DNA from: Pseudomonadota bacterium
GTDB taxonomy: Bacteria > Pseudomonadota > Alphaproteobacteria > Acetobacterales > Acetobacteraceae
Assembly (NCBI GenBank): GCA_021808545.1
Contig: JAKBBM010000001.1
Coordinates: 85,330 to 117,393 of the forward strand
DNA length: 32,064 nt
Direction: 5' to 3'
Shown: positions 6,013 to 32,064 of the stretch, piece after piece
Layout: each line of letters begins with the position of its first letter
How positions within the stretch are numbered: the stretch's first letter is position 1
Made by a program: the position numbers and the translations under genes
The notes under the pieces: model-generated
Seen by the model: the letters and a program-made list of their open reading frames with translations, nothing else
The model's database searches: none
Told to the model about the DNA's origin: nothing

Positions 6013-6065
6013 TGCGTCTCCTACTAAAAGGATGCACCCAAATTCGGGTCTGGTTGTAGCGGGGT

Positions 6066-6089
6066 GGGCCGCCAAGATCTTGGCGGCCC
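6066..6089. repeat. Perfect 24-bp palindrome between carB and greA
   Basis: The sequence GGGCCGCCAAGA is followed directly by its reverse complement, so the whole 24 bases are self-complementary. It begins 5 bases after the carB stop on the minus strand. As RNA it would form a strong stem with a tight loop. No U-run follows on either strand, so it is not a textbook intrinsic terminator. It could slow or partially terminate polymerase between carB and greA, protect the carB 3' end, or be a protein-binding site. Confidence 0.6.
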
Positions 6090-6094
6090 GCTGA

Positions 6095-9337
<3,243 letters not shown>

Positions 9338-9395
9338 GGGAAAATCCTGGAGGGTAAGCTGCGGGCGCCGTGAGCGGCCAAGCGGGTCGTTGAGT

Positions 9396-10718: not shown

Positions 10719-10722
10719 GGGG

Positions 10723-10754
10723 GTTGAATAGCGGAATTTTGCTCCGCGCTCAAC
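10723..10754. promoter_or_regulatory. Imperfect dyad just upstream of carA
   Basis: Between carA and the divergent yqeY-like gene lies a two-part inverted repeat. Outer arms GTTGA/TCAAC and inner arms GCGGA/TCCGC are separated by small mismatched joints and a 7-base centre. It ends 4 bases before the carA ATG. It could be an operator, or a stem-loop in the carA leader that affects initiation. Because CarA itself carries an HTH-like domain, self-recognition of this site is a testable idea only. If carA starts at 10757 instead, the repeat is coding. Confidence 0.35.
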
Positions 10755-10797
10755 CATAACGTAAGAGTAGTGGAAATTTTTTCCGGAGACCGAGATT

Positions 10798-11256: not shown

Positions 11257-11260
11257 GCGG

Positions 11261-13054: not shown

Positions 13055-13070
13055 CTCGCAGCGGGTCAGG
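13050..13070 (+). terminator. Weak hairpin at dnaG 3' end
   Basis: CCTGAC and GTCAGG can pair around a 9-base loop across the dnaG stop codon, followed by TTATT. The stem is only 6 bp and the T-run is interrupted. At most it would attenuate transcription between dnaG and rpoD; it could equally be incidental. Confidence 0.3.
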
Positions 13071-13073
13071 TTA

Positions 13074-13103
13074 TTGCCTATCTGACGAATTGTAAAATAT
13101 ATA
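13074..13103 (+). promoter_or_regulatory. Candidate rpoD promoter
   Basis: TTGCCT and TATATA are separated by 18 bp in the AT-rich stretch between dnaG and rpoD, about 30 bases before the rpoD ATG. This fits a housekeeping sigma-70 promoter and would let rpoD be expressed independently of dnaG. The call rests only on pattern match. Confidence 0.4.
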
Positions 13104-13133
13104 CCCCGCTTATTTCCGGAGTACCGCCAAATC

Positions 13134-15041
13134 ATGGCAACCAAGCCCACCGTCGCCACGGAAACCGCCGCCCCCGAGGCTGAAGCCGACGCCAACGTTC
13201 TCGACACCCAGTCCGCCGCGGTCAAACGCCTGATCGCCAAGGGCAAGGAGCGCGGCTACATCACCTTCGATGAGCTGAACGCTGTTCTGCCGGCCGAGCA
13301 GAATTCCTCCGAGCAGATCGAGGATATCATGGCCATGCTCTCCGAGATGGGCATGCAGGTGGTGGAGAGCGAGGAAAGCGAGGAAGGCGAGACCGCGGCC
13401 GCGGCCAAGGATGAAGGCGCCGAGGATGAGGAGCAGGCCGGGAATATCTCGGAAAGCTCCGTCTCGCGCACGGATGATCCGGTGCGCATGTATCTGCGTG
13501 AGATGGGCACGGTGGAGCTGCTCTCGCGCGAGGGTGAGATCGCCATCGCCAAGCGCATCGAGGCCGGGCGGGACATGATGATCCGCGGGCTGTGCGAAAG
13601 CCCGCTCACCTTCCGCGCCATCATCGCCTGGCACGAGGCGCTGAATAATGGCCGCGTGCTGCTGCGCGACATTATCGACCTCGAGGCCATGCAAGCGGGT
13701 AATGAGCCCGGCGGCGACGAGGATTACGAAACCACCGAGGAGATGGACGAGGAGGATGAGGGCGAAGGGGCGGGCATGTCGCTCGCCGCACTGGAAGAAA
13801 AACTAAAGCCCGAGATTTTCCAGCATTTCGAGGAGATCGAGAAACTCTACGACAAGCTGGCCAAACTCCAGACCAAGCGGATCGACAATCTTACCGCCGG
13901 CGGTGACATTAACTCCCGTTCCGAGAAAAATTACGAGAAGCTGCGCGACGAGCTGGTGGCCAAGGTCGAGCAGGTGCGGCTCAATAATAACCGGATCGAG
14001 GAGCTGGTCTCGCAGCTGAAGGTGCTGAACCAGCGGCTGAACGGGCTGGAGGGGCAGCTTTTGCGCCTGGCCGAGAGCACCAAGGTCGCACGCGATGAGT
14101 TCTTGCAGCATTATCGCGGCCGCGAGATGGACCCGGGCTGGGTGCAATATGTGGCCGCCTTGCCGGGCAAGGGCTGGAAGGAATTTGCCCGCAAACATGA
14201 GGCGCAGGCGAATGATCTGCGCGGGCAGATCAGCAAGGTCGCGGCCGAGGCCGGCTTGCCGATTGAGGAATTCCGCCGCGTTTACATGACCGTCTCGCGC
14301 GGTGAGCGTGATTCCACCCGGGCGAAGAAGGAGATGATCGAGGCCAATCTGCGGCTCGTGATCTCGATTGCCAAAAAATACACCAATCGCGGCCTGCAAT
14401 TCCTGGATCTCATCCAGGAGGGCAATATCGGACTGATGAAGGCGGTGGATAAGTTTGAGTACCGGCGCGGCTATAAATTCTCAACCTACGCCACCTGGTG
14501 GATCCGCCAAGCCATTACCCGCTCCATCGCCGATCAGGCGCGAACCATCCGTATTCCTGTGCATATGATCGAGACGATCAACAAGCTGGTGCGCACCAGC
14601 CGCCAGATGCTGCACGAGATTGGCCGCGAGCCCACGCCTGAAGAGTTGGCTGAAAAGCTCGGCATGCCGCTCGAGAAAGTGCGCAAGGTGCTGAAGATCG
14701 CCAAGGAGCCGATCAGTCTTGAAACCCCGATTGGCGATGAGGAAGACAGCCATCTTGGCGATTTCATCGAGGATAAGGGGGCCATCATCCCGCTGGATGC
14801 CGCCGTGCAGGCCAATCTGCGCGAAGCTGCCACACGTGTGCTCTCCTCGCTGACCCCGCGTGAGGAACGCGTGCTGCGCATGCGCTTTGGCATCGGCATG
14901 AATACCGACCACACGCTCGAAGAGGTTGGCCAGCAATTCAACGTCACGCGTGAGCGTATCCGGCAGATCGAGGCCAAAGCCCTGCGCAAGCTCAAGCACC
15001 CCTCGCGCAGCCGCAAGCTACGTAGCTTTTTGGACGATTGA
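13134..15041 (+). CDS. rpoD: RNA polymerase sigma factor RpoD (sigma-70)
   Basis: This is the housekeeping sigma factor directing RNA polymerase to -10/-35 promoters. Region 1.1 is near residues 25-90 and region 1.2 near 107-145 ('[22 protein letters not shown]'). A long acidic non-conserved region follows, including '[13 protein letters not shown]'. Region 2 starts near residue 404 with '[19 protein letters not shown]' and contains '[14 protein letters not shown]'. Region 4.2, '[24 protein letters not shown]', lies near 594-617. At 635 residues it is a normal alphaproteobacterial primary sigma factor, not a short stress sigma. The start ATG follows a 'CCGGAG' element 13-18 bases upstream. 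A GNAT gene begins 2 bases after the stop. Confidence 0.99.
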
Positions 15042-18191: not shown

Positions 18192-19664
18192 ATGAAACCA
18201 ACGGGTTTCCATTGTCGCGCCGCCACCCTGTTGCTGGTCTTGGTTTTGCCAGGCTGCGCTGTGGGGCCCGATTATCACCGGCCTGCCGCGCCCAAGGTGG
18301 CCCTTACCGCCAAGCCTTTGCCGTCCGCAACGGTTGCGGCGGGCGGTGTCGCGCAGCATTTCAAGCCCGGCGCCGATATCCCTGGCGATTGGTGGACACT
18401 TTATCACTCAAAGGCGCTGGACGGTCTGGTTAAGGCGGCGCTGGCGCACAACCCCAGCCTGGCCGCGGCACAGGCCACGCTGACGCAGGCCGAGGAGACG
18501 GTGCGCGCCGATGAGGGGGTGTTGCTGCCCAGCCTGTCGGGCGATCTTTCCACGCAGCGCCAAAAAGCCTCTGCCGCCACGGCCGGTAAGGTGGGGGCTT
18601 ATACGCTTTATAATGCATCGTTCGCGGTTTCTTATACATTCGATCTGTTTGGCGGCGCCCGCCGCGCGGTCGAGAGCGTCGCCGCCCAGGCGCACTATCA
18701 GCGCGAGCAGCTGGAGGCTGCCTATCTTACCCTGACCACCAATATCGTCACCGCCGCGATCCACGAAGCTTCGCTCAAGGCGCAAATTACGGCCACCCGT
18801 CAGCTCATCGCCGATGAACAGCAATTGCTGGATATTTTGCAGGCGCAGGTGCAGGCGGGCGGGGCAGCGCCCGCGCAGCTTTTGCAGCAGCAGGCGCAGC
18901 TGGCGCAGCAAGAGGCCACCTTGCCGCCGCTGCAATCGCAAGAGGCGCAGGCGCGCAACCAGCTTGCCGCCTATGCCGGGGCCTTCCCCGGCGATTTCCA
19001 TATGGCGGATTTTGCCCTGGATGATCTGCATTTGCCGGAGAATGTGCCGGTCAGCCTGCCATCGGCCATTGTCGCGCAGCGCCCGGATATTCGCGCCGCG
19101 GCCGCGCAGCTGCACGAGGCCAGCGCCAATGTTGGCGTGGCCGATGCCCAGATGCTGCCGCGCATCACCCTTTCGGCCGGCATTGGGCATGAGGCGTTGA
19201 CCACGGGCAGCTTGTTCACGCCGCAGACGCTCATTTGGAATCTCGCCGCCGGGCTGACCCAGCCCTTGTTCGAGGGCGGCACGCTCAATGCCAAGCGCAA
19301 GGCGGCCCTGGCCGCGCTGCGTGGGGCGGCGGCGAACTACCAGGGCACGGTCATCAATGCGTTCCAGAATGTGGCGGATGTGCTGGCGGCCTTGCAATAT
19401 GATGCCGCGGAGCTGAAGGCGGCGGACAAGGCGCGGAGCGCCGCGGCGCAAAGCCTTAAGGTGACCGAGGCGCAGTATAAGTTGGGGGCGCAGCCTTTCT
19501 CGGCGGTGCTGACGGCCGAGACGACATATCAGAGTGCCGTGCTGACCGATGTAAAAGCCCAGGCCACCCGCTTGGCCGATACGGCGGCGCTTTATCAGGC
19601 GCTGGGTGGCGGATGGTGGCACCGGCACGATGTCGCGGTCTCGTGTTGTGGAATTGTTCCATGA
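18192..19664 (+). CDS. RND efflux outer-membrane lipoprotein (NodT/OprM family)
   Basis: The outer-membrane channel of a tripartite pump, 490 residues. The signal peptide has a hydrophobic stretch ending in a lipobox 'LPGC', so the mature protein is likely lipidated at that cysteine. 'VGPDYHRPA' right after it is the classic start of this family. Two TolC-like repeats follow, with long alpha-helical coiled segments and 'LPSAIVAQRPDIRAAAAQLHEA' characteristic of the family. The first gene of the operon; a TTGACG at 18157 and a TATAAA at 18166 exist but their spacing does not make a clean promoter. The last 12 or so residues ('RHDVAVSCCGIVP') look like an unconserved tail. Confidence 0.95.
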   Translation: MKPTGFHCRAATLLLVLVLPGCAVGPDYHRPAAPKVALTAKPLPSATVAAGGVAQHFKPGADIPGDWWTLYHSKALDGLVKAALAHNPSLAAAQATLTQAEETVRADEGVLLPSLSGDLSTQRQKASAATAGKVGAYTLYNASFAVSYTFDLFGGARRAVESVAAQAHYQREQLEAAYLTLTTNIVTAAIHEASLKAQITATRQLIADEQQLLDILQAQVQAGGAAPAQLLQQQAQLAQQEATLPPLQSQEAQARNQLAAYAGAFPGDFHMADFALDDLHLPENVPVSLPSAIVAQRPDIRAAAAQLHEASANVGVADAQMLPRITLSAGIGHEALTTGSLFTPQTLIWNLAAGLTQPLFEGGTLNAKRKAALAALRGAAANYQGTVINAFQNVADVLAALQYDAAELKAADKARSAAAQSLKVTEAQYKLGAQPFSAVLTAETTYQSAVLTDVKAQATRLADTAALYQALGGGWWHRHDVAVSCCGIVP

Positions 19665-19677
19665 GGATGGTTGCAAG

Positions 19678-20823
19678 ATGAGCATGGACAGGAAAACGAT
19701 AAAACGGCTGGTGCTGATGCTGATCGGCGTCGGAATCCTGTTTGGCGGGCTTTTTGCCTGGGGGCTGCTCAGATCTTATTTTATCTCCAAGTTCCTGGCG
19801 GGGTTTGCGCAGCAGGTGCAGACCGTTGCCACCGTTACCGCGTCCAAGGCGCCGTGGCAGCCGCAATTGCAGTCGGTTGGCAGCTTAAGGGCGATTAATG
19901 GCGCCGCGCTTTCGGCCGAGACAGCGGGAATCGTCGATACCATAAACTTCCAGTCAGGTGAGGATGTGAAGAAGGGGGCGCTGCTGCTGACCCTGCGCCC
20001 GAACAATGATCCAGCGGTGCTGGCCGAGCTGCAGGCGGCGCTAAAGCTGAGCCAAATCACTTATGAGCGCGATAAGAAGCAGTTCGCCGCCCGCGCCATT
20101 TCCGCCGAGCAGCTCGACACGGACCGCGCCAATTTGCAATCGGCACGGGCCAAGGTGGCCGCGCAGCAAGCCTTGATGGACGAAAAGCAGATTCACGCGC
20201 CCTTCTCGGGGCAGCTTGGCATCCGCAAGGTCGATGTCGGACAATATTTGCCCGTAGGCACCGCGATCGTCACGCTGGAGCAACTCAACCCGCTTTATGT
20301 CGATTTTTACGTGCCCCAGCAGGCGCTGGAGCGTGTGCGGGTTGGCCAGCTCGTGCATGTGATGCTCGATGCCTATCCCGGGGAGACATTCAACGGCAAA
20401 ATCGCCTCGATTGGCTCCTCGGTCGACACCACAACCCGCAGCCTCGAGGTTCGCGCGCGCCTGAACAATCCGGATTTAAAGCTGCGTCCGGGCATGTTTG
20501 GCAATATCAAAATCGATACAGGCAAGCCGGTATCCTACATCACCCTGCCGCAAACCGCGATTGTCTATAATTCCTACGGCGATCTTGTTTATCTGGTCGA
20601 GCATGGAACCAATGAGAAGGGCAAGCCGGATCTTGTTGTGCATTCGGTGTTCGTGAAGCTGGGCCAGACGCGCGGCGACCAGGTGGCGGTGCTCTCGGGC
20701 GTTAAGGCGGGCGATGTTGTGGTAACCGCCGGGCAGATGAAGTTGCGTGGCGGCGTGGCGGTGAAGATTAATAACAGCGTGACCTTGCCAAACAGCCCCA
20801 ACCCCAATCCTCCGAACGAGTAA
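19678..20823 (+). CDS. RND efflux periplasmic adaptor (membrane fusion protein)
   Basis: This protein bridges the pump and the outer-membrane channel. An N-terminal membrane anchor ('LVLMLIGVGILFGGLFAWGLL') is followed by the lipoyl/hairpin region ('ALSAETAGIVDTINFQSGEDVKKG', then a coiled-coil hairpin) and beta-barrel motifs ('IHAPFSGQLGIRKVDVGQYL', 'VDTTTRSLEVRARLNNPDLKLRPGM'). At 381 residues it is the usual size. The track extends to 19606, inside the preceding gene; the ATG at 19678 or the next one at 19684 gives a normal signal-anchor start. A GAGG lies 11 bases upstream. The order channel-adaptor-pump is less common than adaptor-pump-channel. Confidence 0.95.
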   Translation: MSMDRKTIKRLVLMLIGVGILFGGLFAWGLLRSYFISKFLAGFAQQVQTVATVTASKAPWQPQLQSVGSLRAINGAALSAETAGIVDTINFQSGEDVKKGALLLTLRPNNDPAVLAELQAALKLSQITYERDKKQFAARAISAEQLDTDRANLQSARAKVAAQQALMDEKQIHAPFSGQLGIRKVDVGQYLPVGTAIVTLEQLNPLYVDFYVPQQALERVRVGQLVHVMLDAYPGETFNGKIASIGSSVDTTTRSLEVRARLNNPDLKLRPGMFGNIKIDTGKPVSYITLPQTAIVYNSYGDLVYLVEHGTNEKGKPDLVVHSVFVKLGQTRGDQVAVLSGVKAGDVVVTAGQMKLRGGVAVKINNSVTLPNSPNPNPPNE

Positions 20824-20828
20824 GTGCG

Positions 20829-23800
20829 ATGAAACGCCTGACCGATCTGTTCATCGCCCGTCCGGTGCTGGCCATCACGGTCAGTATCCTGATTTTCGTG
20901 CTGGGCTTGCGCGCCGTCACCAGCCTGCCGGTGCAGCAATATCCGCAGACGGAAAGCGCCACCATCACCATCACCACCACCTATCCGGGCGCCTCGCCCA
21001 ATACGGTGGCCGGTTTCGTGACCACGCCGCTGGAAAATGCCGTCGCGCAGGTTAACGGCATCGACTACATGACCTCGCAGAGTCAGCTTGGCACCAGCAC
21101 CATCACGATCAATCTGCGGCTGAATTACGATCCCGATAAGGCGCTCACCGAGATTAGCGCGCGCGTCAATTCGGTGCTCTACCGCCTGCCCACCGGCGTG
21201 CAGCAGCCGGTGCTGACGTTGGCGATCGGGCAGACCTTCGATGCGATGTATATCGGCTTTGGGAGCAAGGAACTCTCTGGGCCTCAGATCACGGATTATG
21301 TGCAGCGGGTGGTGCAACCGCAATTGCAGGCCGTGCCGGGGGTGCAGACGGCCGAAATTCTGGGGCTGCAGAATTACGCCATGCGTATCTGGCTCAACCC
21401 CGCCAAGCTTGCCGCTTATGGCTTGACCTCGACCGATGTGTGGAATGCGCTGGCCGCAAACGATTTCATCGCGCCGATTGGAAGCACCAAGGGGCAGATG
21501 ACGCAGATGACCCTGACGGCGAATACCGATCTGCACAGCGCGTCGGAATTCAGAAACTTGATCCTGGCGCATAAGAACGGCGCCATGATCCGGTTGAAGG
21601 ACGTGGCCAAGGTCGAGCTTGGCTCGGATGATTACGACCTCAACGTCACCATGAACAACAAGGCCGGTCTGTTCATTGGCATTCAGGCAGCGCCGGGGGC
21701 TAACCTGCTCGAAGTCACTAATGGCATCCGCAAGGTGTTTCCGAGCATCAAGGCCAATTTGCCGCAGGGGCTCAACGCCGCTATTGACTTTGATTCCAGT
21801 AAGTTCGTTCATGCCTCGATCCGCGAGGTGCTGCTGGCGCTGGGCGAGGCGCTGCTGATCGTGACGCTCGTGGTTTTTGCCTTCCTGGGCTCGCCGCGCT
21901 CGGTCATGATTCCGGTCGTCGCCATTCCGCTCTCGCTCATCGGCGCCTTTGCGATGATGGCCGCGTTTGGGTTTACCATCAACCTGCTGACGCTGCTGGC
22001 GCTGGTGCTGTCCATCGGCCTCGTGGTGGATGACGCGATCATCGTGGTTGAAAATGTCAACCGGCATCTCGATCTTGGGGAAACACCAATGGCGGCGGCG
22101 CGCGCGGCGGCGGGCGAGCTGGCGGGCCCGATCATCGCCATGACGGCGGTGTTGATCGCGGTTTATGTGCCGATCGGTTTTCAGTCCGGCCTGACGGGAG
22201 AGCTGTTCACCGAATTCGCCTTCACGCTGGCGGGCGCGGTGACCATTTCGGCGCTTATTGCCCTTACGCTGACGCCGATGCTCAGCTCGCGCCTCTTGCG
22301 GCATATCGACCGCGGGGAGCGCAACTGGGAAGCACGGCTGATTAGTTTTATCGACCGGCGGATGGACGAGGTGCATCGCCTCTATACCAGGCTGCTGCGC
22401 GCGAGCTTGGATACCGTGCCGGTGACCCTGACCTTCGCCGTTCTCATTCTCGCGAGCATCTATTTTCTGGCGTCCGGCTCATCGAGCGAATTGGCGCCCC
22501 AGGAGGATCAGGGCGTTACTTTTGCCCTGGCCACCCCCCCGCCCAATGCCACGACCACGCAAAAGACGATCTGGGACCATGAGCTTGGCCGTATTCTGTT
22601 GCAACATAAACAGGTGCAGCTCACCTTCCACTTCGCTTTTCCGGGAACCGATGTGACCGGTGAAGTGCTGACCCCCTGGGATAAACGCGACAAAACCTCA
22701 ACTCAGATCCAGACCATCTTGCAAAAGGCGCTCGATAAGGGCGTTGCCGGCGAGCAGGTGGTGGTGGGGCAACCGCCTTCGCTGCCGGGTAGCCATGGTC
22801 TGCCGGTACAGTTCGTGATCAAATCCACGAACAGTTTCCAGAGCATTTATCCCGTGGCGCAAAAGGTGCTGGCCGCGGCGTTGAAGAGCGGTAAGTTCAT
22901 CTTCCTGCAAAGCGATCTCAAGATCGATCAGCCGGAGGCCCAGATCATTATCGACCGCGACAAGGCCGCCGCCCTGGGCTTGAGCATGAGCCAGGTGGGC
23001 CGCGTGCTGGCCGAGGCGCTGGGGGGTGGCTATGTCAATTATTTCAGCCTGGATGGGCGCTCCTATAAGGTTATCCCGCAGGTTCAGCGCCGCGACCGGT
23101 TGAATCCCGCTGATCTCAACAATTATTATGTGCTGTCGTCGGGTGGTATCAATGTGCCGCTCTCCGCCATCGCCACCATCAAGACCAGCGTGATTCCGGA
23201 AGCGATCAACCATTTCCAGCAGCAAAACGCAGCCACCTTGCAGGGGGTTCCAGCCCCTGGCGTGAGTCTGGGCGAGGCCATGAAAACCCTGCAAGACATC
23301 GCGGCCACGATGTTGCCCGCCGACGATCATATTGATTATGGCGGCCAGATGCGGCAATTGGCGCATACCAGCAGTGGCTTTTTGATGACGTTTGGTTTTG
23401 CCGTGATCATCATCTTCCTGACGCTCGCGGCCCTGTTCAACTCATTCCGCGATCCGTTTATCATTCTGGTTTCGGTGCCGATGTCCATCGCCGGTGCACT
23501 CATCTTCATTTATATCGGCGTCGGGGGGCTTACGCTCAACATCTATACCGAGGTCGGGCTGGTCACGCTGATGGGGCTGATTTCCAAGCATGGAATTCTG
23601 ATGACGGAAGTGGCGAATGAAGCGCGCCTGGCCGGCATGAGTAAGCGCGAGGCGATCGAGCATGCCGCCTCCATTCGTCTGCGCCCGATCCTGATGACCA
23701 CTTCCGCCATGGTGCTGGGCGTGCTGCCGTTGATCATCGCCTCTGGCGCGGGGGCGGCCTCGCGCTTTGCCATGGGCATGGTGATTGCCACCGGTCTGGC

Positions 23801-23885
23801 CATAGGCACGCTGTTTACGTTGTTTGTGGTGCCGGCGGTCTATACGGTGCTATCGGGCGAGAAGGTCGCGCCGCCCCAGGATTAG
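20829..23885 (+). CDS. RND efflux inner-membrane pump (HAE1/AcrB-like permease)
   Basis: A proton-driven drug/H+ antiporter, 1018 residues, full length. Twelve membrane segments in two halves flank two large periplasmic domains. The proton-relay pair is D401-D402 in 'GLVVDDAIIVVENVNRH', and the lysine of the second half is K920 in 'LISKHGILMTEVANEAR', matching D407/D408 and K940 of AcrB. It is closer to the MexK/MuxB-like HAE1 branch than to heavy-metal (CusA) pumps by feel, and no substrate can be assigned. It starts 5 bases after the adaptor stop and ends the operon just before a strong terminator. Confidence 0.98.
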   Translation: MKRLTDLFIARPVLAITVSILIFVLGLRAVTSLPVQQYPQTESATITITTTYPGASPNTVAGFVTTPLENAVAQVNGIDYMTSQSQLGTSTITINLRLNYDPDKALTEISARVNSVLYRLPTGVQQPVLTLAIGQTFDAMYIGFGSKELSGPQITDYVQRVVQPQLQAVPGVQTAEILGLQNYAMRIWLNPAKLAAYGLTSTDVWNALAANDFIAPIGSTKGQMTQMTLTANTDLHSASEFRNLILAHKNGAMIRLKDVAKVELGSDDYDLNVTMNNKAGLFIGIQAAPGANLLEVTNGIRKVFPSIKANLPQGLNAAIDFDSSKFVHASIREVLLALGEALLIVTLVVFAFLGSPRSVMIPVVAIPLSLIGAFAMMAAFGFTINLLTLLALVLSIGLVVDDAIIVVENVNRHLDLGETPMAAARAAAGELAGPIIAMTAVLIAVYVPIGFQSGLTGELFTEFAFTLAGAVTISALIALTLTPMLSSRLLRHIDRGERNWEARLISFIDRRMDEVHRLYTRLLRASLDTVPVTLTFAVLILASIYFLASGSSSELAPQEDQGVTFALATPPPNATTTQKTIWDHELGRILLQHKQVQLTFHFAFPGTDVTGEVLTPWDKRDKTSTQIQTILQKALDKGVAGEQVVVGQPPSLPGSHGLPVQFVIKSTNSFQSIYPVAQKVLAAALKSGKFIFLQSDLKIDQPEAQIIIDRDKAAALGLSMSQVGRVLAEALGGGYVNYFSLDGRSYKVIPQVQRRDRLNPADLNNYYVLSSGGINVPLSAIATIKTSVIPEAINHFQQQNAATLQGVPAPGVSLGEAMKTLQDIAATMLPADDHIDYGGQMRQLAHTSSGFLMTFGFAVIIIFLTLAALFNSFRDPFIILVSVPMSIAGALIFIYIGVGGLTLNIYTEVGLVTLMGLISKHGILMTEVANEARLAGMSKREAIEHAASIRLRPILMTTSAMVLGVLPLIIASGAGAASRFAMGMVIATGLAIGTLFTLFVVPAVYTVLSGEKVAPPQD

Positions 23886-23903
23886 GCCCGTTTTGGCATT
23901 CCG

Positions 23904-23933
23904 CCCCGCCATGGCAACGTGGCGGGGTTTTTT
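23904..23933 (+). terminator. Intrinsic terminator of the RND operon
   Basis: CCCCGCCA pairs with TGGCGGGG around an 8-base loop and is followed at once by six T residues. It lies 18 bases after the pump stop codon and is a textbook rho-independent terminator on the plus strand. Confidence 0.92.
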
Positions 23934-24005
23934 GTGTAAAATTTCGCTTAGGACGCGAGTCTTAATCTTTTCTTAAACTCAAACTCGTGGCACGTTTTGC
24001 GTGTC

Positions 24006-24761
24006 ATGGCCAGAAATCACGCAACGACAGGTTTTGCCGACGTCTCCATGCTGGAGACGCTTTCGCCGGAGATCCGTCCGGGTAAGCCCGCCGTGAGCGC
24101 GGATGGGCATCGGGCCCGTTTGCGCGCGCGTTTTCTGGCGGGCGGGGCGGCGGCCCTGGCCGAGCATGAGCTGATCGAGATGCTGCTGTTCCTGGCCCTG
24201 CCGCGCCGCGACACCAAACCCATTGCCCGTTCGCTGATGGCGCGGTTCGGCTCTTTCGCCAATGTCATCTCGGCCTCTCTGCCCGATCTTCTGGCCGTGG
24301 ACGGGCTGGGCGAGGCCGGGGTTTCGGCGCTGAAAGTGGTGCAGGCCGCGGCCCAGCATTTGGCCAAGGCCGAGGTGCTCTACCGCCCCGTGCTCAGCAA
24401 CTGGGACCGGTTGATGGAATATCTGCAAAGCGTGCTTGCGCGCGAGAAGATCGAGCAGTTCCGCGTCTTGTTTCTCGATAACCGCAACCGCCTGCTGGCC
24501 GATATTCCGCAGGCCCGGGGGACGGTCAATCACACGCCTGTCTATCCACGCGAAGTGGTTAAACGGGCGCTGGAGCTGCACGCCACCGCCATTATCCTGG
24601 TCCATAACCATCCCAGCGGCGATCCGTCCCCCTCCGAGGAGGATATCCACATGACCCGCGAGATCCGGCATGCCGCCAATGCGTTGTCCATCGTGCTGCA
24701 CGACCATGTGATTGTCGGCAATGGGCAGTGGCTCAGTTTCAAGAAGGCGGGGCTTCTGTGA
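24006..24761 (+). CDS. radC: RadC family JAB/MPN-domain protein
   Basis: The N-terminal helix-hairpin-helix-like part ('LAVDGLGEAGVSALKVVQAA') is followed by the JAB/MPN domain carrying the JAMM metal motif 'LVHNHPSGDPSPSEED'. Length (251 residues from the ATG) is normal. The historical link to DNA repair has been withdrawn for E. coli RadC, so the function is open; the metal motif suggests a hydrolase. The track starts at a TTG at 23997; the ATG at 24006 is preferred, with no clear Shine-Dalgarno for either. Its 3' end overlaps the convergent methyltransferase gene by 23 bases. Confidence 0.93.
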   Translation: MARNHATTGFADVSMLETLSPEIRPGKPAVSADGHRARLRARFLAGGAAALAEHELIEMLLFLALPRRDTKPIARSLMARFGSFANVISASLPDLLAVDGLGEAGVSALKVVQAAAQHLAKAEVLYRPVLSNWDRLMEYLQSVLAREKIEQFRVLFLDNRNRLLADIPQARGTVNHTPVYPREVVKRALELHATAIILVHNHPSGDPSPSEEDIHMTREIRHAANALSIVLHDHVIVGNGQWLSFKKAGLL

Positions 24762-25539
24762 GCGGCGGGGCCCAGCCGGTGAGCACCGCCAAGCGCAGCA
24801 CGGCGTGCGCGCGGCCTTCCCGTTGGGGCAGTGCTGCCAGGGAAGCGGCAAACAGCCCGCGCGGCGGAATGGCGCGGCTGCGGGCCAGTAGCGCGTTCGT
24901 CTCGCCGGCTGTGCGCAGCTCATGCAACAGCGCCAGCGGGTTTTTATATAAAAAAGAGATATCCTCCGCATCGGCGACCGGCAGCACAAATCCGGCGCGG
25001 GTCAGCAGCCCGGCGCAGTCGCGTAATTCGGGAAAAGGCGAGATTCGCGGGCTGACCTTGCCGGTGAGCCGCTCTTCCGCCTCCAGCAATGTCTCGCGCA
25101 GCGCCTGCAGCGTGCCCAGTGCGGGCATGCTGGCCAGCAGCAGCCCGTCTGGCTTTAAGCTGCGGCGCAGTTGGATCAACGCACCGGGCAGATCATCCAG
25201 AAAATGCAGGGACAGATTCGCAACCACCAGGTCGAAAGCCTGCGCCGGCAGGCCGAAATTCTGCGGCCCGGCCAGCACTAGCGGCTTTCCGCCCGCTCGC
25301 GCCGCCATGGCGGGGGAAAAATCGGCCGACACAACCTCCATGCCGCGCGCCGCCAGGGCAGGGGCAATAACCCCGCGCCCGCCAAAATCCAGCGCGGTGG
25401 AAAAATGGCGGCTGGTATCGTCCAGGCGGTCTAGCAGCCGTTCGCCCAAAGCCTCCAGCACCGGAAACACGCGCGGCACATGCGCTGCCGCCCGCTCACG
25501 GTGTTTTACCATTGCCTCAAAATCGAAAATCGGGTGCAA
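24739..25539 (-). CDS. SAM-dependent methyltransferase (BioC/NDUFAF5-like)
   Basis: A 266-residue class I methyltransferase. A degenerate SAM-binding strand 'TALDFGGRGVIAPALAARG' is followed by the acidic strand end 'EVVSADFSPAMA' and the post-IV motif 'AFDLVVANLSLHFLDDLPGALIQLRRSLKPDG'. The opening 'IFDFEAMVKHRERAA' resembles the 'IFDRALL..RR.RAA' start of the bacterial NDUFAF5-like group, often found next to comF and grxC in Alphaproteobacteria. The start is a TTG at 25539, supported by 'AGAGG' 6 bases upstream and by keeping the IFD motif; an ATG at 25512 would remove it. The TTG is immediately adjacent to the comF ATG on the other strand. Substrate unknown. Confidence 0.86.
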   Translation of the reverse strand: MHPIFDFEAMVKHRERAAAHVPRVFPVLEALGERLLDRLDDTSRHFSTALDFGGRGVIAPALAARGMEVVSADFSPAMAARAGGKPLVLAGPQNFGLPAQAFDLVVANLSLHFLDDLPGALIQLRRSLKPDGLLLASMPALGTLQALRETLLEAEERLTGKVSPRISPFPELRDCAGLLTRAGFVLPVADAEDISFLYKNPLALLHELRTAGETNALLARSRAIPPRGLFAASLAALPQREGRAHAVLRLAVLTGWAPPLTEAPPS

Positions 25540-26286
25540 ATGAAACCTCTACTGCGCTGGATGCTGGATACCGTGCTGCCGCCCTCTTGTCTTGCCTGCG
25601 ATACGCCGGTGGAGCGGGTGGGGCAATTCTGCCTGGATTGTTTCCGCCGGGCGAATTTTATCGCGGGGCCGGTATGCCGCTGCTGTGGCGTGCCGCTGCC
25701 TTATGCCGAGGCAGGCGGGCAGCCGCGTTATTGCCATGCCTGCACGGCGCAGCCGCCCGTTTTTGCCCAGGCGCGCGCCGCATTGCGGTATGATGAGGTT
25801 GCTCGCCGGCTGATTCTGCCACTGAAATATGCCGACCATACCGAGGCGACCGAGGGGCTGGCACGGTTGATGCGCCGTCCGGGCGAGGCGATGCTCCAGG
25901 CGGCGCGGCTGATCGTGCCCGTGCCGCTGCACTTGTCGCGCCTGCGCGCGCGGCGCTTTAACCAGGCTGCATTGCTCGCCATTGCGCTTGCACGGCTGAC
26001 GGGCCGCCCCGTGGCGGCTGATGCGCTGATCCGCACCCGCCCCACCGCGCCGCTGGAGGGTATGGGGGTGGCCGCGCGCCAGGCGGAGTTGGAAGGCGCC
26101 ATTGCGCTGCGGCCTGGGGCCGGGGTGGCGGGTAAGCGGGTGTTGCTGGTCGATGATGTGATGACCTCGGGTGCGACCGCCAATGCCTGTGCCGCGGTGC
26201 TGCTTGCCAATGGTGCAACACGGGTGGATGTGTTGACCACCGCGCGCGTGGCTGATCCGCGCCTGGAAAACGGGGGGCTTGCATAG
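25540..26286 (+). CDS. comF: ComF family phosphoribosyltransferase-like protein
   Basis: The N-terminal zinc-ribbon-like part has several cysteine pairs ('CLACD', 'CLDCF', 'CRCCG', 'CHAC'). The C-terminal type I phosphoribosyltransferase domain ends in the PRPP-binding loop 'VLLVDDVMTSGATANACA'. ComF is needed for uptake of transforming DNA in Gram-positive and some Gram-negative bacteria, but many proteobacterial homologues have no proven competence role. 248 residues from the ATG at 25540, which is better than the track start at 25480 because the family opens with a short lead before the first cysteine pair. Divergent from the methyltransferase with no gap. Confidence 0.92.
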   Translation: MKPLLRWMLDTVLPPSCLACDTPVERVGQFCLDCFRRANFIAGPVCRCCGVPLPYAEAGGQPRYCHACTAQPPVFAQARAALRYDEVARRLILPLKYADHTEATEGLARLMRRPGEAMLQAARLIVPVPLHLSRLRARRFNQAALLAIALARLTGRPVAADALIRTRPTAPLEGMGVAARQAELEGAIALRPGAGVAGKRVLLVDDVMTSGATANACAAVLLANGATRVDVLTTARVADPRLENGGLA

Positions 26287-26313
26287 TTCGGGCGCTGAGC
26301 TAATTGCTCAAGA

Positions 26314-26571
26314 ATGGCTGATGTCGAGATTTATACCCAACCTTTTTGTCCCTATTGCGCGCGCGCCATGGCGCTGTTGCGTGAGAAGGATGTAGCGTTT
26401 CGTGAGATCGCGGCGCCGCATGGCACGCCAGAGCGGGCAGAGGCGATCGAACGGTCGGGCGGGCGCACCACCGTGCCGCAGATTTTCATCAATGGCGCCG
26501 CGATTGGCGGATGCGACGATTTGTTCGCCCTTGCCCGCGCGGGCAAGCTTGATCCGCTATTGGCATCATGA
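26314..26571 (+). CDS. grxC: Glutaredoxin 3
   Basis: A cytosolic thiol-disulfide oxidoreductase using glutathione. The dithiol active site is C12-P-Y-C15 in 'YTQPFCPYCARAMALL', the cis-proline is in 'TTVPQIFING' and the glutathione-binding end is 'IGGCDDLFALARAGKLD'. At 85 residues it is the normal GrxC size. The stop codon overlaps the start of the DUF1178 gene (ATGA), indicating translational coupling. comF-grxC-DUF1178 is a frequent alphaproteobacterial neighbourhood. Confidence 0.96.
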   Translation: MADVEIYTQPFCPYCARAMALLREKDVAFREIAAPHGTPERAEAIERSGGRTTVPQIFINGAAIGGCDDLFALARAGKLDPLLAS

Positions 26572-27038
26572 TTCACTATAATTTGCGCTGCGCCGCCGGG
26601 CATGAGTTCGATGGCTGGTTCAAGGATAGTGCTGGCTTTGAGACGCAGGCGGAAGCCGGGCTGGTCGCCTGCCCGCAATGCGGCGAACGCCAGGTAACGC
26701 GCGCCCTGATGACCCCGAGTATTCCCAAGAAGACGCGTGCGGTCACTGTTGCCGCCGAAATGCCGCCCGCGCCCGCGCCCGCGCCCGCGCCCGAGCCCGC
26801 GGCCGGCGGTGTGATGCCAGATGCCGTGCGCGCCGTGCTGCATAAGCTGCGCGCCGAGGTGGAGAAGAATTGCGACTATGTTGGCGCGGATTTCGCGGCC
26901 GAGGCTCGGCGGATTCACGAGGGCGAGGCCCCGCCGCGCGGCATTTATGGCGAGAGCACGCAAGAGGAAGCCGAATCCCTGGCCGAGGAGGGCATCGCCT
27001 TTGCCCGCATCCCCTGGGTGCCACGCAACGAATCTTGA
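26568..27038 (+). CDS. DUF1178 family protein
   Basis: The 156-residue protein opens with 'MIHYNLRCAAGHEFDGWFKD' and has a 'CPQCG' pair near residues 36-40, the signature of DUF1178, a likely zinc-binding alphaproteobacterial family of unknown function. The C-terminal half contains the conserved 'VGADFAAEARRIHEGEAPPRGIYGE' run. Between the two lies a proline-alanine linker made by a GCCCGC hexamer repeat. It starts inside the grxC stop and ends 8 bases before the hpnK start. Confidence 0.92.
   Translation: MIHYNLRCAAGHEFDGWFKDSAGFETQAEAGLVACPQCGERQVTRALMTPSIPKKTRAVTVAAEMPPAPAPAPAPEPAAGGVMPDAVRAVLHKLRAEVEKNCDYVGADFAAEARRIHEGEAPPRGIYGESTQEEAESLAEEGIAFARIPWVPRNES
26765..26800 (+). repeat. GCCCGC hexamer tandem repeat in DUF1178 linker
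   Basis: Six consecutive hexamers (four perfect GCCCGC, then GCCCGA, then GCCCGC) encode an Ala-Pro run in the linker of the DUF1178 protein. Such tracts are prone to in-frame length changes of two residues per unit. Confidence 0.9.
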
Positions 27039-27046
27039 GCGTGGCC

Positions 27047-27844
27047 ATGCAGGAGATTGTGTTTTCAGCCGATGATTTCGGCCTCACCGAATCGGTGAAC
27101 GAGGCGGTGGAGCAGGCGCATCTGCGCGGGCGGCTGACCCAGGCCAGCCTGATGGTGGCCGCCCCGGCGGCGGCGGATGCGGTGCGCCGGGCCCGCGCGC
27201 TGGCCAATTTGCGCGTGGGGCTGCATCTGGTGCTGGTGGAGGGGGATTCGGTGCTTGGCCATGCCCGCCTGCCGCAGATTACGGGTGTGGATGGTCGCTT
27301 TACCGCCGATCAGGCGCGCCTGGGCGTGAAATATTTTTTCTCGCGCGCGGCTAGGCGCGAGTTGCGGGCTGAGATCGAGGCGCAATTCGCCGCCTTTGCC
27401 GCCACCGGCCTGCCCTTGCATCATGCCGACGCGCATAAGCATATGCATCTGCACCCCACGGTCGCGCGGATCATGATTGAGGTGGGCAAACGCTACGGGC
27501 TGCGGCGGCTGCGTGTTCCGGCCGAGCCGCCTGCCGTGCTGGCCGCCTGTGGCGAGCCTGTGGGGCTGGGCGGGCGCGCACTTTATGCCTGGAGCCGGTT
27601 GCTGCGTTGGCAGGCGCGCGGGTTGGAGGTGCCAGACCAGGTATTTGGCATCATCTGGTCCGGCCATATGACGCGTGAGCGGATCGAGCGGTTGCTCTTA
27701 CATTTGCCGCCCGGGCGGACGGAAATTTACACCCATCCCGCCACCGCGCGCGATGACATGCTGGCGCGGCTGATGCCCGATTACGAGCATGTGGCCGAAT
27801 TCGAGGCGCTGCTGGCCGCCGCCCTGCCGCCGGAGGCGACATAA
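27047..27844 (+). CDS. hpnK: HpnK-like YdjC/ChbG family deacetylase (hopanoid-associated)
   Basis: A 265-residue YdjC-fold protein. The metal-binding opening is 'IVFSADDFGLTESVNEAVEQAH', and the second motif is 'HHADAHKHMHLHP', with the His/Asp ligands expected for carbohydrate deacetylases. Among family members the N-terminal run and length best fit the HpnK group linked to hopanoid clusters in Acetobacteraceae and relatives, but no other hopanoid gene is visible here, so the name is a family-level call. The ATG at 27047 is chosen; an in-frame GTG at 27041 is possible. The track ORF from 26870 overlaps DUF1178 and is too long. It ends at a strong terminator. Confidence 0.86.
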   Translation: MQEIVFSADDFGLTESVNEAVEQAHLRGRLTQASLMVAAPAAADAVRRARALANLRVGLHLVLVEGDSVLGHARLPQITGVDGRFTADQARLGVKYFFSRAARRELRAEIEAQFAAFAATGLPLHHADAHKHMHLHPTVARIMIEVGKRYGLRRLRVPAEPPAVLAACGEPVGLGGRALYAWSRLLRWQARGLEVPDQVFGIIWSGHMTRERIERLLLHLPPGRTEIYTHPATARDDMLARLMPDYEHVAEFEALLAAALPPEAT

Positions 27845-27871
27845 AAAAACCCGGGATAGCCCGGGTTTTTT
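27844..27871. terminator. Strong bidirectional terminator between hpnK and the former rpsI
   Basis: AAAAAACCCGGG and CCCGGGTTTTTT form a perfect 12-bp stem with a 4-base loop (ATAG), starting at the last base of the hpnK stop. The A- and T-runs make it functional on both strands. On the minus strand it lies 10 bases after the S9 stop codon remnant, consistent with having served a convergent rpsI. Confidence 0.93.
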
Positions 27872-27881
27872 CTGAACCATC

Positions 27882-27902
27882 TTAGCGCTTGGAGAACTGG
27901 AA
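27882..27902 (-). other. rpsI: Displaced 3' end of rpsI (putative attachment half-site)
   Basis: On the minus strand these 21 bases read Phe-Gln-Phe-Ser-Lys-Arg-stop, the usual C-terminus of bacterial ribosomal protein S9 (commonly RRSFQFSKR in Alphaproteobacteria). A terminator follows 10 bases later. Upstream the reading becomes Leu-Gln-Thr with no S9 similarity, so homology ends exactly at the Phe codon. An intact rpsI must exist elsewhere, presumably at the other element end. The segment fits the core of an integrase target at a gene 3' end. Confidence 0.75.
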
Positions 27903-27929: not shown

Positions 27930-27967
27930 TTATTTTTGACAAAAATAATCTGTGAATGATCTGTGAA
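27930..27967. repeat. 19-bp palindrome and phased direct repeat near the element edge
   Basis: TTATTTTTG and CAAAAATAA form a perfect inverted repeat around a single A (27930-27948). It is followed by two copies of ATCTGTGAA (27948-27956 and 27959-27967) spaced 11 bases apart, one helical turn. Their position just inside the rpsI remnant suggests recombinase arm-type or accessory-factor sites, or a regulatory region; function unproven. Confidence 0.6.
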
Positions 27968-27992: not shown

Positions 27993-28337
27993 TCAGGCCA
28001 CCTTGCGCAAGGTAAAGTCCACATGCACCGCATCATAGGGAAAGATCACGTGCCCGCTGTCGGTGCGGTCAAGCACGCCCGCGGCCACGAGGGCTTGCAC
28101 GTCGCCATGCACGGCCTTCACGTCGCGGCCAACGTGACGGGCAATCTCCCGGATGGTCATTTCACCTTGTGCCGTCATGGCCTGCAAAATGTCCCACCGC
28201 TTGGCAGTCAGCACCTTCCATAGCAGTTCGACAGTTACAAAGCTGATAAATTCGCCAAGCTTCTCACCGCGAAAGGCGGCGGCCATCTGGTGCTGTGTGT
28301 CCTCGATCGAGGACACACCGAGCGTTACAGTTCTCAT
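27993..28337 (-). CDS. TumA-like antitoxin / winged-HTH DNA-binding protein
   Basis: A 114-residue protein whose middle (residues 43-100) is a winged helix-turn-helix: 'TAKRWDILQAMTAQGEMTIREIARHVGRD' followed by a wing 'LDRTDSGHVIFPYD'. It resembles the HVO_A0114-type MarR-like regulators that accompany TumE toxins. The track start at 28370 lies inside the upstream gene. The ATG at 28337 is preferred because it overlaps the toxin stop (ATGA) and has an excellent 'GGAGGG' 7 bases upstream. Likely role: neutralise the toxin and autoregulate the operon, probably through the inverted repeat at the toxin start. Confidence 0.82.
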   Translation of the reverse strand: MRTVTLGVSSIEDTQHQMAAAFRGEKLGEFISFVTVELLWKVLTAKRWDILQAMTAQGEMTIREIARHVGRDVKAVHGDVQALVAAGVLDRTDSGHVIFPYDAVHVDFTLRKVA

Positions 28338-28621
28338 TGTTCTGCCCTCCATGTTTCCACGTCTTTCCAAAAGTCCGCTTGCAGGGTCGCAAGGTCAGTG
28401 AAGCAGTACGGCACTTCGCGTTCCCCGACATGCTTATGATCGCCCTTGCCGGCCTCGTTGTCGTAGCGCAGCAAGCACACACCTTCCGCTACCAAGGCCA
28501 ACCGATACTTGAAGCCATGCAAGCTGCCACGCACGGGATCAGGCACCCGCCAGATCACCATTTCCACGAACGCCGTCTCCGACAAGCCCTGGCGTTTACG
28601 GAACAACAACTCAGCTTCCAT
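28334..28621 (-). CDS. TumE family toxin (DUF6516-like)
   Basis: From the ATG at 28621 the protein is 95 residues. The conserved core 'FKYRLALVAEGVCLLRYDNE' and 'GKGDHKHVGEREVPYCF', then 'LQADFWKDVETW', is the signature of TumE/DUF6516 toxins. Charged and aromatic residues in RYDNE...GKGDHKH are the conserved patch, but the biochemical activity is not something I can state. The track start at 28669 adds 16 unconserved residues and would place the gene over its own promoter; 28621 fits the family start 'MEAELLFRKR'. The toxin gene precedes the antitoxin, with a 4-base overlap. Confidence 0.84.
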   Translation of the reverse strand: MEAELLFRKRQGLSETAFVEMVIWRVPDPVRGSLHGFKYRLALVAEGVCLLRYDNEAGKGDHKHVGEREVPYCFTDLATLQADFWKDVETWRAEQ

Positions 28622-28640
28622 GTTGGAGTCTATACCAACA
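28621..28640. promoter_or_regulatory. Inverted repeat overlapping tumE -10 and start codon
   Basis: TGTTGG and CCAACA are perfect complements separated by 8 bases. The repeat covers the -10 hexamer and reaches the ATG of the toxin gene, the usual place for an autoregulatory toxin-antitoxin operator. Confidence 0.55.
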
Positions 28641-28657
28641 AGTAATGCTGTTGTCAA
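28629..28657 (-). promoter_or_regulatory. Near-consensus sigma-70 promoter of the tumE-tumA operon (leaderless)
   Basis: On the minus strand TTGACA (28657-28652) and TATAGA (28634-28629) are separated by exactly 17 bp. Only 7 bases separate the -10 from the A of the toxin ATG, so transcription should begin at, or one base before, the start codon. The toxin would then be translated from a leaderless mRNA, while the antitoxin has a strong Shine-Dalgarno. Confidence 0.72.
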
Positions 28658-28812
28658 TTGGTCCAACAAGATGTCCGGCCGACTTTCCGAAATCTTTTGG
28701 CCTCAAGGAACGGAAGGGGACGGACAGTTTTAGAACGATGCCGGGGTAAGACGAGCATTAGGCTGTTTCCCCAGCGCTCGGCCCGGGGGGCTAAATGGCC
28801 GCTGTGGGTAGT

Positions 28813-29565
28813 TTAGCGCCAGTCAAAACTATCCTGGCTGGACGGTGGTTTGCGTGGCTGGCGGGACCGTATAGCATCCCAGTTGATTGGCTTCGTCATA
28901 ACATGATCGAAAGCGTCAACCACACGCTGAAGAACCTCTACGACGTCAGAAGCAGCAACAAGAGGCAGCGTATTCGATGAATAAACACGGGGTACACGCT
29001 CTTTTAACCCCGGCGGGACGCTTAAATCGAAAATTTCAAGGTCCATAGGACCATATCCAGGTCCGAATACGTCGTCGTCACGTAGAAGCGTATGCCTGAG
29101 GGCGGAACCCATAAGGCCAAGTTGGTGCGTGCTCAGGGCAAACCCCCGCCGAGGCTGGACCCAGAAGAATTTGGGAATCCTGTTCTCCAAATAGATAAAA
29201 TCAGCTCGAACACGAATGATCACATCCTTGCGGAGCCGAATGACGCCCGGTGGTAGACTCAGGCGGTGATCATCAATGTTGATGCACCGAACGTCGCGGC
29301 CCTCGCCGTGGTCCCACAAAAATTCTGTGACATCTAGATTGATCTTGCGTTCAGTTTCCAAACGCAACCGTTCACATCCACGCTTCAAGGCAGCAAACGG
29401 TACAGCATGTGAAAAAGCGGTCTGGCTATTTGCACGGGCGTGGCGATAGCTCACGGAAGGAACGGGCCGGGTAAGGTGCAACTCAACCTGCTCGACCGTT
29501 CTTTCAAACGTCGATTCCCATAGCCGGACCAAATCATGAAGATCGGGCAATTTCGGGGGACTCAC
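28813..29565 (-). CDS. Unrecognised protein, candidate toxin paired with Panacea protein
   Basis: I do not recognise this family. From a GTG at 29565 it has 250 residues, soluble, no signal peptide or membrane segment. The central part alternates hydrophobic strands and charged turns ('DVIIRVRADFIYLENRIPKF' then 'FWVQPRRGFALSTHQLGLMG'), followed by 'MDLEIFDLS' and a helical C-terminus 'VVEVLQRVVDAFDHV'. The D...(13-15)...QPRR spacing faintly recalls nuclease cores but is not a real motif match. It follows the Panacea gene by one base (TGA-G-GTG), so it is probably coupled to it; a TTG at 29601 (262 residues, the track ORF) is the alternative. Position next to a Panacea antitoxin suggests a toxin, by inference only. 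Confidence 0.62.
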   Translation of the reverse strand: MSPPKLPDLHDLVRLWESTFERTVEQVELHLTRPVPSVSYRHARANSQTAFSHAVPFAALKRGCERLRLETERKINLDVTEFLWDHGEGRDVRCINIDDHRLSLPPGVIRLRKDVIIRVRADFIYLENRIPKFFWVQPRRGFALSTHQLGLMGSALRHTLLRDDDVFGPGYGPMDLEIFDLSVPPGLKERVPRVYSSNTLPLVAASDVVEVLQRVVDAFDHVMTKPINWDAIRSRQPRKPPSSQDSFDWR

Positions 29566-29566
29566 C

Positions 29567-30127
29567 TCAGCATATTGACGGATTGTACCCGAGTCGGGCA
29601 AGAGTATTTGTGGACGAGAAGCAATCTTTTAAAAAATCATCGCTGTTCTGGTGAAGAAAATCTCGCCGGATTGCTTCGTTACTGATCCTCATGCCCAAAG
29701 AAATTTTGTTGTCGGGCTTATTCCAGACTTGGTCCCAAGGACCACCTGGCCGGTGGGTCATGCGTGACAATTCATATGCGTCGATGTGACCGTAGGCCAT
29801 AACAATGGTGCGCAGCAACTTAGCCGCCCCCTCGTTAAACTCGGCCGTCCACGGGTGAACAGATTCAGTCAGCGGATCAAACCAAGTCGCAGGCTGTGAA
29901 ACTGGATCACGACCGAATTTTTTGAATGCTGTATAGACACTTCCCAGTACAGGTCCAAAATCCCATGCCTCAAATTCTTGTTTGAGAAGGGGGTGCCCCG
30001 TCTGAGCCAAGTACCAACCGTGGGCGTAATAGAGGATTTTCTGGATAGCCATTGGCGTCAAAGCGAGCCTCTCCGAGACTGCTAGATCAAGCATAAAATT
30101 AGCTGCGGCCCTGGCATCGTATGTCAT
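29567..30127 (-). CDS. Panacea-domain (SocA/DUF4065-type) antitoxin-like protein
   Basis: The 186-residue protein carries the Panacea/SocA core: 'LTPMAIQKILYYAHGWYLAQ' near residues 23-42, followed by 'FEAWDFGPVLGSVYTAFKKFG' near 52-72. In known cases the domain neutralises many unrelated toxins encoded beside it, or acts as a proteolytic adaptor (SocA with ClpXP in Caulobacter). The C-terminal part ('LRTIVMAYGHIDAYELSRMTHRPGGPWDQVW') is also typical. The ATG at 30127 has no clear Shine-Dalgarno. It is the first gene of a two-gene unit with the unrecognised protein. A phage-type GepA-like role is an alternative. Confidence 0.85.
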   Translation of the reverse strand: MTYDARAAANFMLDLAVSERLALTPMAIQKILYYAHGWYLAQTGHPLLKQEFEAWDFGPVLGSVYTAFKKFGRDPVSQPATWFDPLTESVHPWTAEFNEGAAKLLRTIVMAYGHIDAYELSRMTHRPGGPWDQVWNKPDNKISLGMRISNEAIRRDFLHQNSDDFLKDCFSSTNTLARLGYNPSIC

Positions 30128-30367: not shown

Positions 30368-32064
30368 TCACCTCCCCAATCTTGGCCCCCGTGGCCTGAG
30401 CATGTTTCGCAGTTCCTGGGCTTTTCTCATTTCTTCGGCTTGCCGCGCCCGTTCCGTCTGCGCGGCGATCAGTGTCTCCCGGCCCTTCTCCAAGGAGGCA
30501 CGCAGTTTCTGGTCGGTTGCCAAGCCGGAGCGCGCGCGGTTCGACTGAGCCGCCTCGAACCGCAGTGAGGCCCCCTTATCCTCCCGCTGCCGCATGATCT
30601 GTCCGGTCAAGGCGGGCAGGTCCGGTGCCAGCTCGCGCGGCACGAAGAGCCGGTAATCCTCCTGGTGCCGTGTGCCGATGACATAGGCCGCACGGGCATC
30701 CCAGGCATAGGAATTGTCATAGACGGCCGCCGTCGTGGGCAGCGTCTTACCCTGGCCCTTATAGCCCGTGCCGCTATAGCCCAGGCCCCATTTGTCGTAT
30801 TTCGCCGGGTCGAACGCGACGGTCGCCCCGTCATCCTTCACGATTTCGATGTGCCTCGGTGCCACGGCTTTGACGGTGCCAAACTCCGATGTCGCCACGC
30901 CGAGCTGCCGGTCGGTCTCGTAAAATTGCACCCGCTCTCCGGCGGCAATCGACACGTCACCGCGCACCGTCTTGAATCCATGCGCCTGGATCGGATTGCC
31001 CTTCACAGAAAGGTCGGCCCGTCGCCGCTGCTGCTCAGCCCGGTTCAGCTCCTCCACCTCCTTGTTGGTGCTGGCATAGAGGAAGCTCGGCCGGTCGATT
31101 GATGCCTGCGCCGCCACCGCGCGTTGTCGCGCATCGGCCAAGCTGTCGCACCAGACGATCTGGCCTCGCCGGTCATATGCCTCCAGCGCGGCATGAATAT
31201 CGCCCCGCGCAAAATCCTCGCTGGCTTTGGCCTGGTAGGTCTGACGCTGCCGCAGCACGGTTTTCAGCTCGGCCGCGCCATGTTGGTTGACCAGCTCCGT
31301 GAACATCCCGCCGCGCGACACCGACGCGAATTGCCGGTCATCGCCCGCGAGGATCAACTTGGCGCCGCTCTGCTCGGCGCCCTTCAGCAGCTTCGCCATG
31401 ATGGCGTTATCCATCATGCCCGCCTCGTCCACCATCACGACGGTCTTGCGATCCCAGCGCGCCGGGTCGCGCTCCAACTGCCCCAACTCGCGATGCAAGG
31501 TTGCGGCATGGCCGTAACCGTCCTTGCGCAAATCTGCGACCACGGCATTGGTCGGGGCCAAGCCAATCACCCGGTATCCCTCCGCCTCGAACGCGTGCCG
31601 CGCCGCATTCAAGGTATGGCTCTTTCCCGTCCCGGCCCGGCCGATGACGATGCTGATGTGTTTTTCGTCTGTGACGTACTCGGCTGCAGCAAGCTGCTCC
31701 GCCGTCAAATCGGCGCGCGTCAGTTCCGCTCGGCCAGCGTGCCTGACCGCCCGGCCGGTCGTCTCGCCAAGTCGCTCAGCCGTGCCGATGATCGCCATTT
31801 CCTCGTCGCGGACCTGGCGTGTGGTCCAGCCGATCTCATCGCGGCCATCGGCAAGCAGCGGCACAACATCGGCATGACCAATGATCCGGGCTTCCAGCGC
31901 CGCGCGCTGCTCGCCCTCTAACCCAGATTTGTTCAAAGACTGGCGCAGATCGCGCGCCGTAAAAACCGCTTTCTGCGCGGTGAGGCGGAGCAAAATTTCG
32001 TCCGGGTCGCGCAGCTTCGCCTGCTCGGCCGTCGCGTTGGCCCGCGCGATGTCCGCTCGGTCGG
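30368..32064 (-). CDS. traA: Ti-type conjugative relaxase/helicase TraA, C-terminal part (5' end outside window)
   Basis: The reading frame is open to the window end, so the track start (TTG at 31993) is not real. The visible 565 residues contain the superfamily 1 helicase part: Walker A 'VIGRAGTGKSHTLNAARHA', Walker B 'VVMVDEAGMMDNA', and 'ILAGDDRQFASVSRGGMF' as the next helicase motif, then a RecD2-like C-terminal region ending in an Arg-rich tail 'RPRGPRLGR'. In Ti-type TraA proteins an N-terminal MobA/MobL (MOBQ) relaxase domain nicks oriT; it would lie beyond the window. No frameshift is visible. It marks the region as conjugative or mobilizable. Base composition is close to that of the chromosome, so transfer from a related host is likely. 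Confidence 0.93.
   Translation of the reverse strand, partial: DRADIARANATAEQAKLRDPDEILLRLTAQKAVFTARDLRQSLNKSGLEGEQRAALEARIIGHADVVPLLADGRDEIGWTTRQVRDEEMAIIGTAERLGETTGRAVRHAGRAELTRADLTAEQLAAAEYVTDEKHISIVIGRAGTGKSHTLNAARHAFEAEGYRVIGLAPTNAVVADLRKDGYGHAATLHRELGQLERDPARWDRKTVVMVDEAGMMDNAIMAKLLKGAEQSGAKLILAGDDRQFASVSRGGMFTELVNQHGAAELKTVLRQRQTYQAKASEDFARGDIHAALEAYDRRGQIVWCDSLADARQRAVAAQASIDRPSFLYASTNKEVEELNRAEQQRRRADLSVKGNPIQAHGFKTVRGDVSIAAGERVQFYETDRQLGVATSEFGTVKAVAPRHIEIVKDDGATVAFDPAKYDKWGLGYSGTGYKGQGKTLPTTAAVYDNSYAWDARAAYVIGTRHQEDYRLFVPRELAPDLPALTGQIMRQREDKGASLRFEAAQSNRARSGLATDQKLRASLEKGRETLIAAQTERARQAEEMRKAQELRNMLRPRGPRLGR

Follow-up and report, generated by a model that had tools for sequence, protein, structure and literature searches.

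Why does the tail of a ribosomal protein gene lie, cut off from the gene itself, next to hpnK? The window analysed here, a stretch of 32,064 nucleotides, is the right end of contig C128 in a draft genome of the Acidocella group. Toward its right end, hpnK (27047–27844, plus strand) is followed by 21 bases (27882–27902, minus strand) whose reverse strand, TTCCAGTTCTCCAAGCGCTAA, translates as F Q F S K R stop, the C-terminus of S9, as originally predicted. These are the displaced last six codons and stop of rpsI. Between the end of hpnK (27844) and the displaced tail sits AAAAAAACCCGGGATAGCCCGGGTTTTTT (27843–27871, not assigned to a strand), a hairpin with an A run and a T run that folds at −19 kcal/mol (z −4.2). 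It is the original bidirectional terminator, common to hpnK and rpsI as had been proposed, and similar GC-rich hairpins occur between the two genes in relatives with an empty site. The most likely answer, and one that we hold with high confidence, is that the right end of the window is the left part of a chromosomal integrative mobilizable element (IME) inserted site-specifically at the rpsI 3′ end by its own tyrosine recombinase.

The original prediction took the 21 bases for an attachment core that would be repeated at the end of an intact rpsI, next to rplM. In the 2.4-Mb assembly, the 22 bp of CTTAGCGCTTGGAGAACTGGAA (window 27881–27902) had one other exact copy, at C111:188–209, and chance alone would hardly produce an exact repeat of this length in an assembly of that size (estimate about 1e-6). 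This copy is the end of the genome's only S9 gene (PF00380, 169 bits, one match in the draft genome), which lies at the start of contig C111, is complete and has a translation ending FQFSKR*, with rplM beyond it. The second core copy is placed exactly where the insertion hypothesis predicts, and the converse possibility, an rpsI elsewhere with no repeat of the core, is contradicted. Both contigs stop inside the element, C111 holding its other side. A 22-bp core was rejected: base 22 differs between the attL and attR copies of three other elements (A. aminolytica, G018 and G008). Thus, the true core is 21 bp, and attL corresponds to 27882–27902.

What does the site look like when nothing has been inserted? 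In nine relatives rpsI faces hpnK with no element between them, as anticipated, which contradicts the possibility that uninterrupted genomes lack rpsI beside hpnK. The intergenic gap is about 70–180 bp in six of them and holds an ordinary gene in the other three, and the hpnK homologue beside rpsI is 65–83% identical. When the two sides of the insertion were aligned to the empty locus of one relative (G012), window 18448–27902 matched positions 3–9470 and C111 189–4269 matched positions 9450–13537, so that the two alignments overlap by exactly 21 bp, the core and nothing else. A second empty locus (G021) gave the same picture with an overlap of 22 bp. Such a core-only overlap is the signature of site-specific integration, and flanking att repeats together with an empty site in relatives are expected of an IME. 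Both contigs end inside the element, as is usual at assembly breaks, and an S9 tail arising by chance or a chimeric join made during assembly or binning could be imagined. We give this explanation almost no credence because A. aminolytica, G018 and Phenylobacterium kunshanense each show the same arrangement within one contig and because synteny is exact across the empty site.

Which enzyme would catalyse this insertion? Contig C111 starts with 11 codons, MVESFYQQAHR, that match the N-terminal residues of an A. aminolytica tyrosine recombinase (428 aa, PF00589); these first 33 bases are all of the recombinase gene in the source genome, where the middle of the element is unassembled. A recombinase gene start thus adjoins the intact rpsI, as predicted, and the element has its own integrase at one end, as expected of an IME (11 codons on C111; in A. 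aminolytica the corresponding position holds the full PF00589 protein). Other recombinases of the source genome were considered as the rpsI recombinase and rejected, those on C49 and C24 being XerD- and XerC-like and those on C71, C53 and C18 distant or fragmentary. C71 (locus L007) encodes a different, 410-aa tyrosine recombinase with a reverse-transcriptase-like ORF nearby and probably belongs to another mobile element.

Scanning our genome collection for the recombinase yielded 15 loci in Acidocella, Phenylobacterium and bins labelled Sphingomonadaceae, Rhodospirillaceae, Rhodospirillales and Rhizobium, with identities of 58–100% once a few short fragments are set aside. At every locus that preserves both the start of the recombinase and the flank before it, the rpsI end lies about 160–210 bp upstream, with one exception (G444, discussed below). 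Ten of the recombinases were placed in a tree and form one clade (support 100/100) apart from about 25 non-rpsI relatives; the closest non-rpsI homologues found are about 26–37% identical. The motifs NSGLR, YSLRH and EKHY are kept, save that G008 has YSLRN and is perhaps inactive. In a plasmid collection only matches of 30% identity or less were detected, and viral contigs and solved structures (searched by sequence) gave no match. Samples of 385 genomes of the class and 399 of the phylum contained nothing at strict thresholds; thus the family is sparse.

How is rpsI kept functional when its end is replaced? The stop codons of the two copies differ in A. facilis and G443, being TGA in the displaced tail (attL) and TAA in the intact gene (attR). 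The stop thus comes from the element, and strand exchange takes place upstream of that codon's second base. Soon after the rpsI stop, all aligned recombinase-side ends but one carry a hairpin that folds at −22 to −26 kcal/mol (z about −6 to −7). In its stem 91% of cells are paired and 24 cells changed on both sides compared with a shuffled mean of 8; none of 500 shuffles scored as high, and no slid register comes close. This covarying hairpin indicates that rpsI gets a new terminator from the element.

Both ends also carry short repeats. On the window side, an arm-type pair of TTCACAGA (27949–27967, minus strand; copies at 27949–27956 and 27960–27967) has its members at +47 and +58 from the core, a spacing of 11 bp, and occupies the same positions in five related left ends (two sites versus shuffles, p about 0.0015). 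On the recombinase side, the same repeat stands at +66, +77, +119 and +130. More distant members have TTCACCAAT at these arm positions and the Rhizobium bin has TTGACAAAT, so that the repeat sequence shifts in parallel with recombinase divergence. We infer from this geometry that the repeats are putative integrase arm sites. The favoured mechanism is that the tyrosine recombinase would recognise the 21 bp encoding the universally conserved S9 tail and exchange strands ahead of the stop codon's second base, leaving the host rpsI reading frame full; the element would contribute the stop codon and its own bidirectional terminator hairpin, and the tail and terminator that originally belonged to the host gene would end up next to hpnK, at the opposite end of the element. 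The arm-type repeats, which keep a fixed distance from the core on either side, probably take part in both integration and excision.

What does the element carry? All its genes in the window lie on the minus strand. Nearest the core are a winged-helix protein of the HVO_A0114 family (27993–28370; PF25212, E 6e-27), a putative antitoxin partner of TumE, and a TumE-type toxin (28334–28669; PF20126, E 1.4e-15). They are followed by a 262-aa protein (28813–29601) with no Pfam match and a weak likeness to SocB (NF047746, E 0.004, under the cut-off), a candidate toxin of a SocAB-like pair, and by a SocA/Panacea-type antitoxin (29567–30127; PF13274, E 1.4e-19; NF047745 SocA, E 5e-48, 163 bits against a cut-off of 190). 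The region 28813–30127, with its two overlapping genes, is perhaps a divergent SocAB-type toxin-antitoxin pair. The window closes on the C-terminal 564 aa of a TraA-type MOBQ relaxase/helicase (30368–32064), cut by the contig end. This part matches residues 231–794 of its full-length A. aminolytica counterpart, a protein with MobA/MobL and AAA_30 domains, at 92% identity. The element thus has its own relaxase, as expected of an IME. A search for the coupling-protein family gave no match in the draft genome, where the middle of the element is unassembled.

Two relatives have complete copies. The A. aminolytica element is 28.6 kb long with both cores on one contig, and encodes the recombinase, a MOBQ/TraA relaxase, a coupling protein and ArdC. 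Its cargo includes HipA, a type I restriction system and, beside a WYL regulator, a CBASS-like cluster (L039:7839–12535) that combines a nucleotide cyclase with a patatin effector. In P. kunshanense the element measures 51.5 kb; it too has the recombinase, a MOBQ/TraA relaxase and a coupling protein, with a different cargo that includes a Kiwa-like protein. No mating-pore genes were detected among the families found in these two elements, for which part of the ORFs was scanned. With a relaxase, a coupling protein and no mating-pore family, both look like IMEs from their gene content, in keeping with an IME-like lifestyle.

Alternatively, the element in the window could be a full integrative and conjugative element (ICE) with its own mating pore encoded in the unassembled middle. 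TraA-type relaxases are indeed also found in full conjugative systems, but the lack of a mating-pore family among those found in the complete relatives of 28.6 and 51.5 kb leaves this reading a slim chance. As an IME, the element would be transferred by its own TraA (MOBQ) relaxase and, in the complete relatives, their own coupling protein, through a mating pore borrowed from another element.

Is the element still mobile? A decayed, immobile remnant of an ancient insertion would resemble what is seen in several relatives: G018 has a 2.1-kb remnant between two cores with a truncated recombinase, the G026 recombinase has an internal deletion, and a second, inner, decayed core and arm are present in the left ends of A. 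aminolytica, A. facilis, G008, G018 and L100. In the element studied here, however, the toxin-antitoxin genes and the C-terminal part of the relaxase are open, the relaxase remains close to its A. aminolytica counterpart, and both the arm sites and the beginning of the recombinase are preserved. We therefore regard a remnant as unlikely, though worth keeping in mind.

On the G444 contig (L092), rpsI is followed by a right end whose recombinase start is truncated; another right end, with an almost complete recombinase, comes about 3.6 kb further on. An off-target insertion was rejected since rpsI and two successive right ends are on the contig; two right ends in a row after rpsI are read as accretion at the same site. 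L100, a 3253-bp contig of MAG LL7.bin70, joins right end, core and left end, and this junction could equally be an excised circle (attP) or a tandem array; its recombinase gene is disrupted by apparent IS66-type genes. In G008, two distinct copies of the recombinase, 92% alike, lie on contigs C11 and C70 (L090 and L095) at the two sides of the site, reflecting either mixed strains or tandem elements. Thus the remnant, the decayed inner cores, the doubled right ends, L100 and the G008 copies together suggest that insertions recur and stack at this site. Separately, A. facilis contig C8 (L126:1470–1979) contains a short recombinase-start-like stretch fused directly to a TraA fragment, a rearranged remnant.

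Elements that insert at the rpsI 3′ end are already established among the ICEs and IMEs of Streptococcus (PMC4701971, PMC5090054, PMC5704250), in agreement with the original prediction, and among the McRImecD resistance islands of Macrococcus (PMC5341023), with the same target family in Bacillus and S. aureus. The likeness to these Firmicutes elements, insertion at the rpsI 3′ end by a tyrosine recombinase, is one of target and recombinase type. IMESag-rpsI and the streptococcal rpsI elements (PMC5090054, PMC4701971, PMC5704250) share both and have their own relaxase, and IMESag-rpsI also has toxin-antitoxin genes. However, IMESag-rpsI is a 9-kb element of Firmicutes with a MobV relaxase and a Rep_Trans replication protein, whereas the alphaproteobacterial elements have a MOBQ/TraA relaxase, a coupling protein in complete members and sizes of 28–52 kb. 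McRImecD (PMC5341023) similarly pairs a tyrosine recombinase at the rpsI 3′ end with a displaced rpsI 3′ end in the other repeat, but its core is 61 bp long and lies within long imperfect repeats, it lacks transfer genes and it carries mecD as cargo, in contrast to the 21-bp core, replacement terminator and relaxase of the Acidocella-type element. SGI1 and GIsul2-type IMEs (PMC5704250) are proteobacterial elements that likewise insert, by a tyrosine recombinase, into the 3′ end of conserved protein genes, with other targets (trmE and guaA) and hosts. Text searches of the literature, with incomplete coverage, returned no report of alphaproteobacterial rpsI 3′-end integration.

The kind of event is unremarkable in itself; its interest lies in the host group, the breadth of the family and the replacement of stop and terminator. 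On balance, we lean towards an undescribed alphaproteobacterial IME family specialised on the codons of the S9 tail, which no bacterium can do without, one that crosses orders, brings its own stop and terminator, has an arm sequence that follows the recombinase at fixed spacing and stacks repeatedly in tandem at a single site, with L100 as an excised or stacked form.

Island finders that focus on tRNA genes would overlook an integration site such as this one, in a protein gene of Alphaproteobacteria, for which exact element boundaries are now available. The natural series of recombinases, with arm sites changing at constant geometry, is useful for studies of recombinase specificity. The relatives carry defence cargo (the CBASS-like set, the type I restriction system and the Kiwa-like protein) as well as toxin-antitoxin genes. 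The S9 C-terminal tail touches the P-site tRNA and is nearly invariant across bacteria, which would explain a broad host range.
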